64,000 bases of DNA from Natronomonas pharaonis DSM 2160 (GTDB lineage Archaea; Halobacteriota; Halobacteria; Halobacteriales; Haloarculaceae): positions 1,674,001 to 1,738,000 of the forward strand of contig NC_007426.1 in the NCBI RefSeq assembly GCF_000026045.1, written 5' to 3'. The notes below the pieces were generated by a model, which saw nothing but the letters and a program-made list of their open reading frames with translations, searched no databases and had not been told where the DNA came from. The position numbers were made by a program, and so were the translations under genes. Position 1 is the stretch's first letter, and every line of letters starts with the position of its first letter. Of the stretch, positions 46,130-50,178 are shown piece by piece.

Positions 46130-48583
46130 CTACAGCCGGTCGACGACATCGCCGATAATCTGCCGTCCCACGACGCGGTCAAGCGGGTCGTTTTGGTTGC
46201 CACAGTGCTCGGACATGATGCAGAGCGGACAGCCCCGTCGCCGCTGACAGTCGCAGGTATCGAGGTGTTCGTAGGTCCGTTCAGCAATAGTCTCGAAATT
46301 GTCGTAAATCGCACGCGAAAAGCCGATACCGCCGTCGATACCGTCGTGAACGAACCAGACTGGGCCGGGGATTCGCTCGTCGTGGTGGGCTGGCGTCGAG
46401 AGCCCACCGATATCGCTGTTGTCGATGAGCAGCTCTAAGGGAGCCAATTGGATGATGCCGTGTTCGGCTGCGTGGATACCACCCGCGTATGTGTACCGGT
46501 CGGGTTCTGTGATGCCAACGTCCTGTTTGGCGTGTTCGGTCGGCTCAAGCAGCGGGACATCGAGTCCTGCAATCGTGTCTTCGAGGTGCGTCTCCGGAAG
46601 CGACACCCACATGAGCTCGGTATCAAGAGACAGCGGCGGTGAACCGGTCGGGTGAGGGCCGCTTTCGAGTTCGCCGGTCGAGATGTTGTGGACGACATAC
46701 TGGTCGTAGCTGATATCAACGTCGCCCCGCCCGAACCAGAGCGTGTAGCCGTCGCCCAACTCGCGGCTGGTCTCCGGCCGAAGGTTTGAGATGTGTTTCT
46801 GTGAGAGCGTCCGGGTGTAGCGCCCGGTGTTTCGCTCTTCGACAGTAATGCGCGGTGCCGGGGCGTCGTGAGTGACCTCGACAACCTCGTACTGCTGGCC
46901 GTCGTGCAGAAAGAGCGCTCCCTCGTGATAATCACGAGCGGCGCGTTCCTTCGCGACGGGGTCGTGGTCGATGTCGCCGTCACGGCAGTCGACGATATAC
47001 TGGCGGCCGCTGGTGTCGTACATCGAGATCCGGGATTCGGGGCGGCTGTCGCCCGTGTAATGGACGCCGCTGTCGAGTCCGACGCCCTGTTCGAGCACGC
47101 CGGCGTCCTGCCACATAGCGACCATCTCTTGCAGCCGCCTTTCGTCGCCCAAGAGACCGGCATCGTCGTCAGTAAGTGGGCGTTCTCTGGCGGCGACACA
47201 GAGGTGGTCGGCGTAGACCTGCTCGTTGTCGATGGAGACGACGGCGTTCTCGACATCGTCCTCGAACAGATATTTGGGGTTGTCGAGAATGTAAGAGTCC
47301 ATCGCGTCTGCGCCGCCGACCAGCACGGAGAGGGCATCCGATGTTCCGCGTCCGGCGCGGCCGACCTGCTGCCAGAAGGACTGTCGCGTCCCCGGGTAGC
47401 CGCTGGTGACGGTCGCGTCGATGCCGCCGACATCGATGCCGAGTTCGAGAGCGTTGGTGGAGGCGACCGCATCGACGCTCCCGTCTTTGAGTTGAGTCTC
47501 GATGCTTCGGCGGGTCCGCTTTCCAAGCCCACCGTGATAGGCGCGTGTTTTGATGTAGCTGTCTCGTGGGTGGTCCCTTGCAGCGGCACTGATTTTTCGG
47601 GCGGCGATTTCGGTCCCCTGCCGGGCGGTACAAAACTGGAGCGTCTGCCGTTCGTTGACAGCGAGATGTGCGGTAACCTTGGCGGCCTCACCGCCGGTTG
47701 AGGCGCGGAACTCCTCCATGTCCGCCTCGGTCGGGTCGATATCCGCGTCATGGGCTTTTTTGACGGCGTCTTCGTCGATGGGCGGCTTCCAGAGGACGAT
47801 ATCCCGCTCGCCGCGCGGGGAGCCGTCCTCGTCGATGACGGTGAATGCCTCGCCGGTGAGTCTGGCGGCGTGTTGGGCGGGGTTGCCGATGGTTGCGGTC
47901 GTAAGAACGAACTGCGGGTCGGCACCGTAGTAGAACAACAGCCGCCGGAGTCGGCGGAGAATCCAGGCGACATGCGTTCCCATGATGCCGGAATACTGGT
48001 GTGCCTCGTCGACGACGACGAGTTCGAGATTACTGTAGAACCGGGACCAGCCGGAGTCGGTCCCGTGTCGTGGGAGATAGACGTTCAGCCCGGCAGGATT
48101 CGTCAGTATCGTGTCGGCCCCGGTCCGAATGCTCGGTTTCCGCTCCGGCTTCGTATCCCCATCGTAGACCTCAACACGGGTGTCCACATCCCACCCGCTG
48201 AAGCGGTCGTTGAGCGTCTGCTCTTGGTCGCGCGTGAGCGCCTTCATCGGATAGAGACAAAGCGCCGTGGCATCCGGGGACGCCAGTTGATTGCGCGCCA
48301 TCTGGAGGGCGTATATCCGTGTCTTGCCGGAGGACGTAGCGGTCGTGGCGACGACGTTTTCGCCGTCGGCGAGCGCGTTGAGGCCCGCCGCCTGATGGCG
48401 GTAGAGGTCGTTGTCGAGGCGGCTGGCGAGTTCCGGCCGGAGAACGCGCTCTGCGGGGACGGTATCGGCCTTCCGGGCGGAGCGGTGCTCGCTCGCGGTG
48501 ACCTGTCCGGTGTAGTCGGGAAACGAGTCCGTCAGTGCGTCTTCGGAGAGTACGTCGTGGCGCCGTGGTTCGTTGCTGCTCAT
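46130..48583 (-). CDS. DEAH-box repair helicase, MrfA/YprA-like
   Basis: An 817-residue superfamily 2 helicase. The Walker A is TTATSSGKTRIY (Lys87), Walker B VVVDEAHQYSGIM, and motif VI SFWQQVGRAGRGTSDAL. The C-terminal DUF1998 domain has four cysteines in CDCQRRRGCPLCIMSEHCGN, as in Hrq1 and MrfA, where they bind zinc. MrfA of Bacillus (formerly YprA) is a 3'-5' helicase needed with the nuclease MrfB for repair of mitomycin C damage. Here the nuclease-like gene lies directly upstream, 5 nt away, as in Bacillus mrfAB. The archaeal function is inferred from that pairing. Confidence 0.88.
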   Translation of the reverse strand: MSSNEPRRHDVLSEDALTDSFPDYTGQVTASEHRSARKADTVPAERVLRPELASRLDNDLYRHQAAGLNALADGENVVATTATSSGKTRIYALQMARNQLASPDATALCLYPMKALTRDQEQTLNDRFSGWDVDTRVEVYDGDTKPERKPSIRTGADTILTNPAGLNVYLPRHGTDSGWSRFYSNLELVVVDEAHQYSGIMGTHVAWILRRLRRLLFYYGADPQFVLTTATIGNPAQHAARLTGEAFTVIDEDGSPRGERDIVLWKPPIDEDAVKKAHDADIDPTEADMEEFRASTGGEAAKVTAHLAVNERQTLQFCTARQGTEIAARKISAAARDHPRDSYIKTRAYHGGLGKRTRRSIETQLKDGSVDAVASTNALELGIDVGGIDATVTSGYPGTRQSFWQQVGRAGRGTSDALSVLVGGADAMDSYILDNPKYLFEDDVENAVVSIDNEQVYADHLCVAARERPLTDDDAGLLGDERRLQEMVAMWQDAGVLEQGVGLDSGVHYTGDSRPESRISMYDTSGRQYIVDCRDGDIDHDPVAKERAARDYHEGALFLHDGQQYEVVEVTHDAPAPRITVEERNTGRYTRTLSQKHISNLRPETSRELGDGYTLWFGRGDVDISYDQYVVHNISTGELESGPHPTGSPPLSLDTELMWVSLPETHLEDTIAGLDVPLLEPTEHAKQDVGITEPDRYTYAGGIHAAEHGIIQLAPLELLIDNSDIGGLSTPAHHDERIPGPVWFVHDGIDGGIGFSRAIYDNFETIAERTYEHLDTCDCQRRRGCPLCIMSEHCGNQNDPLDRVVGRQIIGDVVDRL

Positions 48584-48588
48584 GGTGC

Positions 48589-50133
48589 TTATGAGAAATC
48601 CGAAAGCGACCCCTGCGTGGTTCGGGACTGCGGTGGCTCGCCGCCGGTGTCCGGAGCGTACCGGCTGGCATCTTGGAGCGCCTCGTAGACAGTCGCCAGC
48701 GCCCGAACGTCGTCCTCACAGTAGGCTTCGAGCCGCTCCCAATCGGGCTGGTACCCGTCTTGGCTGTCGGCCGTCCGCCGCCACGCGTTGTACGCTGCGG
48801 CGACTGCTGCGCCGTCGATACCCGTCGTGGTGGGCTCCCAGCCGAGTGCGGTCGCAACCGGTTCGAGACGGTTGCTTCGTGCCGGGAGGGCGGCGTTGTT
48901 CTTGCTGCTGGCATAGTAGAGCGGGTCGAACTGGTACCGACGCTGCCACTCGTCGGTCCATTCAGGGGCATGCTGCTCAAGTTGGCGGGCGATAATCGGG
49001 AAATCGAAACGGCGGCCGTTCCACGCGACAACGGGCCGCCCCTGTGCGGGGCCGGCGAGCCACGAGATGAACGACTCGATATGCTCCGCTGGGGCGTTGT
49101 GGTCCCGTTGCCGGAACGGAAGATACCGGCCGTCCTCGCTGCCGCCGTCGAGGACGCCGATGAGCCATACAGTATCCCCGTTGAGACCGTCGGTCTCGAT
49201 GTCGACAAAGACCGGGTCGCCGCGGGGAAGCACACCGCCATCACGCGGGACGACTTCGCCGGCCGTGATGGCAGTCGCGGAGGCGTGGACGGTACGGGCG
49301 GTTCGTTCACCGACGCCACGGAGGTCAGCGAGCGCGTGTGGCCCCGCATCAGCGATGGCGGTTCGTGAATCAAAGCCGTGCTCTCTGAGTAGTCCTGCCC
49401 GCTTCCGGCCGATGTCGTCGAGGCCACGGATGCCGAAATTTGAGGGGTCGTGTGTCGTCGCATCGACAGCGCCGTTGGCGTACAGCGACAGCTCGATGAA
49501 CGGTCGTTCGCTCTCGTCGATACCGGCGCCGACGGTGCTGGCCGGCGGGCCAGCACCGTAGACCGGATAGGCGCTGCCGCCACGCTCGTGGGTGGTCCGG
49601 TATTCGGCACGGAGCCCGGTTGAGAGATGCGTGACGGGCGCCCCAGCGTGCCAGCCGTCGGGCAGCGCGTCGAGGTACGCATCGATTCCATCGAGCCGTG
49701 TCATCCGGCGGTGTGGGTCGATTGTCAGGGCAAGCTGGTTCGTGAGTAGGCACACGTGTTCGGCTCCGCTTCCGGAATCGGAGCCGATACCGTCACGTTG
49801 GATATCCCCCGGCGTAGGCGGAAGCTCCTCCGGTGAGGGAGTCGCGACGATGGCAATGCCGGCATCCGGTACGAAGTAGCGGCTGGTCAACCGGGTTGGG
49901 TCGACAACGGGGACATCGGCGAGCCCTGTCACCGACGGTCCCGCAACGTACGCCTGATTAGGCGGGGCAGCGACGATGAGGTCAGGGCCGATGGCGTCGA
50001 TGGCATCGGCAACGACATCCCGGACGGTGTATCGCTCGACAACAGCGCCCGGAATGGAGAGAATCGTCGCCGGCGTGCCGTCCGCTGGCGGGAGGGGCAT
50101 CATAGGGGCGGTACCGCTTCCGGCGGAACCCAT
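48589..50133 (-). CDS. RNase H-like exonuclease, MrfB/YprB-like
   Basis: A 514-residue protein with a C-terminal DnaQ-like exonuclease (RNase_H_2) domain. The ExoI motif is VFVDIETDGLNGDTVWLIG (Asp311, Glu313). ExoII is around VVAWNGRRFDFPIIA, and ExoIII is LEAYCEDDVRAL near 468. A helix-hairpin-helix region (ALADLRGVGERTARTV) precedes it at about 265-285. The N-terminal 230 residues are haloarchaeal-specific. It lies 5 nt before the MrfA-like helicase and is its likely partner in removing damaged DNA. Starts at 50103 or 50100 are also possible. Confidence 0.85.
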   Translation of the reverse strand: MGSAGSGTAPMMPLPPADGTPATILSIPGAVVERYTVRDVVADAIDAIGPDLIVAAPPNQAYVAGPSVTGLADVPVVDPTRLTSRYFVPDAGIAIVATPSPEELPPTPGDIQRDGIGSDSGSGAEHVCLLTNQLALTIDPHRRMTRLDGIDAYLDALPDGWHAGAPVTHLSTGLRAEYRTTHERGGSAYPVYGAGPPASTVGAGIDESERPFIELSLYANGAVDATTHDPSNFGIRGLDDIGRKRAGLLREHGFDSRTAIADAGPHALADLRGVGERTARTVHASATAITAGEVVPRDGGVLPRGDPVFVDIETDGLNGDTVWLIGVLDGGSEDGRYLPFRQRDHNAPAEHIESFISWLAGPAQGRPVVAWNGRRFDFPIIARQLEQHAPEWTDEWQRRYQFDPLYYASSKNNAALPARSNRLEPVATALGWEPTTTGIDGAAVAAAYNAWRRTADSQDGYQPDWERLEAYCEDDVRALATVYEALQDASRYAPDTGGEPPQSRTTQGSLSDFS

Positions 50134-50164
50134 CAGTACTCTGCTGTCGGGTAGCGACGCACAA

Positions 50165-50178
50165 GTATGTGCTGCAAC
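50165..50178 (-). promoter_or_regulatory. Inverted repeat upstream of the nuclease-helicase operon
   Basis: GCACA-AGTA-TGTGC is an inverted repeat 32-45 nt before ATG 50133 that overlaps the expected TATA position (CATACTTG on the minus strand). It may be an operator for a repressor, for instance a DNA-damage response. The evidence is only the symmetry. Confidence 0.3.

Follow-up and report, generated by a model that had tools for sequence, protein, structure and literature searches.

A pair of adjacent genes in the haloarchaeon Natronomonas pharaonis DSM 2160, one for an exonuclease and one for a helicase, probably encodes a two-subunit helicase/3'-5' exonuclease repair module that would be tethered to the sliding clamp PCNA, is patchily distributed and often resides on plasmids. 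The pair lies in a window of 64,000 nucleotides (the whole stretch of DNA analysed here), which covers positions 1674001-1738000 of a 2,595,221-bp contig (NC_007426.1) in a genome of 2.75 Mb, and is chromosomal in this organism. The helicase can be placed in the YprA/MrfA family, the pairing of the two genes is conserved, the catalytic residues of the exonuclease are intact and its C-terminus carries an invariant tail that resembles a PCNA-interacting-protein (PIP) box. An earlier, sequence-only reading had placed both open reading frames (ORFs) as they appear in the ORF list, with the nuclease 5 nt upstream of the helicase, and had proposed a haloarchaeal version of the MrfAB (YprA-YprB) repair system of Bacillus subtilis, in which the 3'-5' helicase MrfA and the 3'-5' exonuclease MrfB function in mitomycin C repair (PMC12458937, PMC11194089). 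The general likeness is evident, as both systems consist of a YprA-family helicase with an MZB domain encoded next to an exonuclease of RNase H fold with 3'-5' polarity, which is predicted for the archaeal enzyme.

The helicase is a member of the YprA/MrfA family. Its DEAD (PF00270), Helicase_C (PF00271) and MZB domains all score above the curated cutoffs (64.6 bits against 24.2 for MZB), a DEAH motif is found at residues 192-195, and the four cysteines of its C-x-C-x6-C-x2-C motif align with those of MrfA in the structure 6znp, which bears out the DEAH helicase with a four-cysteine DUF1998 end recognized earlier. B. subtilis YprA/MrfA (6znp) is also the closest solved structure, matched over helicase residues 36-794 with 311.8 bits (E 8.4e-92) as compared with 71 bits for the runner-up, so that profile comparison places the protein in this family over nearly its full length. 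TIGR03817 is matched with 522 bits, which is under its strict cutoff. Matches to the defence helicases in PADLOC are partial and low-scoring, those to other helicase families are likewise partial and far lower, and the full-length similarity to MrfA clearly exceeds that to Lhr, Hrq1 or defence helicases.

The ancestry within the family was addressed with a tree of 50 sequences rooted on one DruE-like helicase from the same genome. The 32 helicases with a nuclease partner form a single clade (support 99) separate from Bacillus MrfA, the 11 unpaired haloarchaeal ones form another (support 100), and B. subtilis MrfA groups with the unpaired side (95). Since the root is a single long branch and the unrooted tree merely contains three separate groups, the window helicase is not referred to as an orthologue of MrfA proper. 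The unpaired YprA-like helicases, which are near-universal in haloarchaea, share family and domains with it (one member reaches 722 bits with TIGR03817), but are only 36-41% identical to it and have no nuclease neighbour; within the stretches examined, no recurrent neighbour genes were seen around them. Outside the window, at about 1875460-1880762 of the contig, the same genome encodes a 1767-aa DruE-like helicase of the YprA family with DruE3 as its best PADLOC match (429 bits).

The nuclease contains an RNase_H_2 domain (PF13482, residues 308-486, 111.6 bits) preceded by a helix-hairpin-helix (HhH) motif (HHH_5, 32.5 bits; cutoff 27) that matches those of RadA/Rad51, eL32 and NusA. Both the catalytic D311/E313 and the HhH motif had thus been correctly read from the sequence. 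In an AlphaFold2 model of the full-length protein (predicted local distance difference test, pLDDT, 87.8), the exonuclease fold best matches the proofreading domain of family B polymerases (e.g. 5mdn; Z 16.5 over 173 residues, 3.0 Å). Fold and DEDDy site are common to both, yet the nuclease lacks a polymerase domain and is encoded by a gene of its own beside that of a helicase. The exonuclease domain of MrfB has also been reported to resemble family B proofreading domains (PMC11194089). MrfB itself was not among the matches listed in the full-model fold search, which excludes nothing; a direct profile comparison of the exonuclease domain (hhalign, with an MrfB query identical letter for letter to 8un9, residues 33-279) yielded an E-value of 4.3e-5 and a probability of 69%. 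This comparison pairs D311/E313 with MrfB D107/E109 and D377 with D172, i.e. the catalytic D/E, D and D residues align, and by sequence comparison the exonuclease core is related to MrfB.

All five active-site residues (D311, E313, D377, Y471 and D475) are kept in each of 81 family sequences. Tyr471 is located four residues before the last aspartate, in the place of the catalytic His258 of MrfB (PMC11194089). Because this tyrosine replaces the histidine and is invariant in 81/81 sequences, the nuclease is a DEDDy enzyme, in contrast to the DEDDh enzyme MrfB; its unpaired, more distant haloarchaeal relatives have a tyrosine at this position, too. The architectures of the two proteins also differ, as MrfB has a C-terminal tetratricopeptide repeat (TPR) domain, whereas a Pfam scan of the nuclease found no TPR match and nothing but a disordered stretch of about 20 residues lies beyond its exonuclease domain. 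One of the distant relatives, an unpaired protein with an RNase_H_2 domain (about 480 aa, 26% identity), occurs at four haloarchaeal loci (L055-L058), where no helicase neighbour was detected, and is devoid of a PIP box. A close relative of the nuclease from the same genus (L064:10995-12344) has an in-frame TGA and a truncated N-terminus that begins near residue 68; this copy may be decaying or mis-called.

The tail beyond the exonuclease domain is otherwise variable and predicted to be disordered (residues 497-514, pLDDT <50), but its very end is highly conserved: Q507 and L510 never vary, and D512 and F513 hardly do. The proteins encoded at all 44 loci of the pairing set described below and at 80 of 80 further loci terminate in Q-x-x-L-x-[DE]-[FWY], the last residue being F or W. 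As a background, 6 of 494 neighbouring ORFs match a pattern that is looser than the family motif, and the distant unpaired relatives lack the motif. FEN1, a known PCNA client, ends with SVIQTGLDRWT in the same genome. The tail conforms to the Q-x-x-[LIM]-x-x-[FWY] pattern of PIP-box clients, is situated in an accessible terminal segment and can be compared with the Haloferax volcanii PIP consensus QxxLxxFx (PMC7776575). Judged by its conservation, this invariant tail, which had gone unnoticed in the sequence-only reading, is predicted to be a PIP box that would bind PCNA. A C-terminal PIP box is likewise found in NreA of H. volcanii, which is involved in mitomycin C repair and whose contact with PCNA is essential (PMC7776575). 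PCNA-linked damage repair, as in NreA (PMC7776575, PMC4929162), is a candidate role for the gene pair; NreA is an unrelated protein that works with UvrABC and is near-universal in archaea.

The N-terminal extension of about 230 residues noted earlier is real and confidently folded, both in the full model and in a separate prediction for residues 14-234 based on an alignment of 70 sequences (pLDDT 90.4). The best 50 aligned PDB entries or chains are all calcineurin-like phosphoesterases, with Rv0805 at the top (Z 9.8 over 175 residues, 3.9 Å) and purple acid phosphatases, SMPDL3 and Mre11 among the others. Foldseek ranked Vps29, GpdQ and Mre11 first, and polymerase delta and zeta complexes lower. 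As a Z-score of 9.8 is moderate, the assignment to this fold, which rests on structure prediction and had been missed in the sequence-only reading, is regarded as very probable rather than certain. The conserved Asp/His/Asn ligands of active metallophosphoesterases are missing: not one Asp, His, Asn, Glu or Cys within residues 1-236 is invariant (at best 31/36 and 56/70 in two alignments, a maximum of about 86%). A working metal site is therefore unlikely. In its predicted fold the domain resembles inactive calcineurin-like scaffolds such as Vps29 and polymerase B-subunits, but no sequence similarity to these was detected and its metal-ligand positions are unconserved. No Pfam family matched the region consistently over 70 members, and hhalign revealed no sequence similarity to the small subunit of the organism's own PolD (probability 0.1). 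Searching 97 haloarchaeal genomes with the domain listed 39 matches in 35 genomes, which, where coordinates are comparable, all fall inside these same nuclease genes.

In a set of 145 haloarchaeal genomes, 58 encode the nuclease at a threshold of E <1e-10, which corresponds to 28 of 58 genera. Helicases of the wider family are found in 128 of the 145 genomes. At all 44 loci with a nuclease of more than 29% identity, the helicase gene follows on the same strand, mostly overlapping or within 25 nt (about -4 to 23), with single gaps of 120 and 1350 nt; overlaps of hundreds of bases stem from over-extended ORF starts. Among 80 further loci from a genome collection, 76 pass a strict spacing filter, and the other four look like contig-end or ORF-start artefacts. 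The pairing is hence conserved over Halobacteria. In a phylum-wide draw of 197 genomes, strong nuclease matches were confined to the haloarchaeal order. A nuclease match was also found in 46 plasmid records, including plasmid PHS3 of Halobacterium salinarum R1, where the pair corresponds to OE_RS12870/OE_RS12865. When the window is aligned with its nearest relatives, the match is restricted to these two genes and excludes the flanks, which indicates that the two genes travel together. Taken together, the conserved pairing, patchy occurrence, plasmid location and unmatched flanks mark the pair as a mobile unit of two genes that is conserved yet optional.

Some plasmid neighbourhoods are more elaborate. 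On a plasmid of Haloprofundus halobius (L199:785-12476), the pair is preceded, in this order, by a gene for a PLD-type/tyrosyl-DNA phosphodiesterase, two small genes, a JAB-ThiF gene and a second YprA-type helicase gene. This cluster was seen entire in L199, L208 and L209 and without the ThiF part in L210; at least the second helicase is present in L052, L053 and L081, and some clusters have genes for an ATP-dependent helicase and a PD-(D/E)XK protein upstream. The PLD/JAB-ThiF cluster is a candidate defence or replicon-maintenance operon. In H. salinarum PHS3 (L198:12936-13580), the pair is followed by a third gene, whose RNase H-like product of 214 aa is weakly similar to PolB exonuclease.

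A plausible course of action can be put forward for the module. The YprA/MrfA-family helicase, as a 3'-5' translocase, would unwind DNA and expose a 3' end, and the exposed strand would then be degraded in 3' to 5' direction by the DEDDy exonuclease of family B proofreading type, with the HhH motif providing an extra DNA contact. The PIP box may dock the exonuclease on PCNA, in which case the reaction would take place where the clamp is loaded, i.e. at stalled forks or sites of repair synthesis. The N-terminal phosphoesterase-like domain with its lost metal ligands would most likely act as a scaffold for protein interactions, possibly with the helicase. Comparable to MrfAB, the module would most likely serve accessory repair or the clearing of 3' strands that are blocked or damaged.

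Several observations weigh against such a repair role. The nuclease occurs in under half of the haloarchaeal genomes and the pair is frequently found on plasmids, both unlike a core repair system; one plasmid subclade lies beside the second helicase, PLD-type enzyme and JAB-ThiF genes and resembles a defence or mobile-element operon; the likeness to MrfB is limited to the exonuclease core; and UvrA is encoded in this genome. A stricter version of the repair idea, that the pair is orthologous to the Bacillus genes and conducts the same UvrABC-independent mitomycin C repair, appears unlikely. The adjacency of the same two activities, MrfA as the closest solved helicase and the alignable exonuclease core speak for it. 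Of the MrfAB claim in the sequence-only reading, the helicase family, the MrfB-related core and the pairing stand, but the catalytic tyrosine, the different architecture (no TPR; phosphoesterase-like domain, HhH and PIP box added), the separate clade of the paired helicases, opposite Bacillus MrfA in the tree rooted on DruE, and the plasmid-rich distribution do not agree with it. In addition, the nuclease gene comes first in the haloarchaeal pair, the reverse of the order of mrfAB in Bacillus.

Conceivably, the pair could instead attack invading or competing replicons as a mobile-element or defence module recruited via the PCNA clamp. The patchy distribution, the many plasmids with the pair, the unconserved flanks and the PLD and JAB-ThiF neighbours fit this proposal, as does the defensive nature of the other main branch of the YprA family (PMC12458937). 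We nevertheless consider it improbable for the pair in general, as the nuclease has no PADLOC match and the helicase only partial, low-scoring ones, so that no known defence system could be assigned; moreover, the helicase matches MrfA at full length, most neighbourhoods are without recurrent defence genes and the pair is chromosomal in this genome. Phage records contain no nuclease match, and a phage or viral origin was rejected, with three weak hits in viral contigs limited to a stretch of about 80 residues that includes the first exonuclease motif. A role in defence or replicon competition is possible above all for the PLD/JAB-ThiF plasmid subclade. Similarly improbable is a mobile haloarchaeal clamp-guided DNA-degradation machine, built from the PCNA-tethered exonuclease with its pseudo-phosphoesterase scaffold and the YprA helicase and with an origin separate from bacterial MrfAB, that would combine replicon competition or antiviral defence with repair. 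The pair could also maintain replication forks by trimming 3' ends at stalled forks or primer termini, as a clamp-bound, proofreading-like accessory rather than by damage excision. The resemblance of the exonuclease core to proofreading domains, the invariant PIP box and a phosphoesterase-like fold common to polymerase B-subunits (matches to polymerases delta and zeta) are in line with this suggestion, which is doubtful given that the pair is dispensable judging by its distribution and that its N-terminal domain has no sequence similarity to the PolD small subunit. The PCNA-tethered repair module remains the favoured reading.

The features of the locus are compiled in Table 1. Sequence composition along it gave no sign of an island. 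An inverted repeat at the promoter, GCACA-AGTA-TGTGC, is present as described in the sequence-only reading, where it was taken as a hint at damage-linked control. Inverted repeats with 5-bp arms and loops of 3-8 nt occur in 52-65% of comparable 150-nt stretches, and the repeat is absent upstream of the genes in the closest relatives; owing to this background frequency and lack of conservation, it is no more than expected by chance, and a function as damage operator was ruled out.

Table 1. Features of the nuclease-helicase locus, given as positions in the window.
Feature	Position	Strand	Details and basis
Exonuclease gene, MrfB-like DEDDy, predicted 3'-5'	48589..50133	minus	ORF, 514 aa; PF13482, HHH_5, family alignment, AlphaFold2
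Domain order of the exonuclease: degenerate phosphoesterase-like domain, HhH, exonuclease domain, PIP tail	48589..50133	minus
N-terminal domain, residues 20-232, predicted calcineurin-like metallophosphoesterase fold	49438..50076	minus	structure comparison
HhH DNA-binding motif, residues 238-283	49285..49422	minus	HHH_5 32.5 bits
DEDDy exonuclease domain, residues 304-491	48661..49224	minus	D311, E313, D377, Y471, D475
C-terminal PIP box QGSLSDF, residues 507-513, predicted PCNA binding	48595..48615	minus	conservation
Intergenic gap, 5 nt	48584..48588	minus	operon-like arrangement of both genes
YprA/MrfA-family superfamily 2 (SF2) DEAH helicase	46130..48583	minus	817 aa; domains, TIGR03817, 6znp match, tree
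MZB (MrfA Zn-binding, DUF1998) domain, residues 706-789	46217..46468	minus	C-x-C-x6-C-x2-C at 777-788
Inverted repeat GCACA-AGTA-TGTGC	50159..50172	none	judged chance

The combination of a pseudo-phosphoesterase domain, HhH motif, DEDDy exonuclease and PIP box corresponds to no full-length family in Pfam, NCBIfam or PADLOC. If the proposed reading is correct, a helicase-exonuclease pair of YprA/MrfA type would be tied to the sliding clamp, a link that is undescribed for the Bacillus pair in the cited papers and that makes the connection to damage repair directly testable via a seven-residue tail. Haloarchaea that carry the pair may then possess a second, optional PCNA-linked route beside the NreA-dependent mitomycin C repair of H. 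volcanii.

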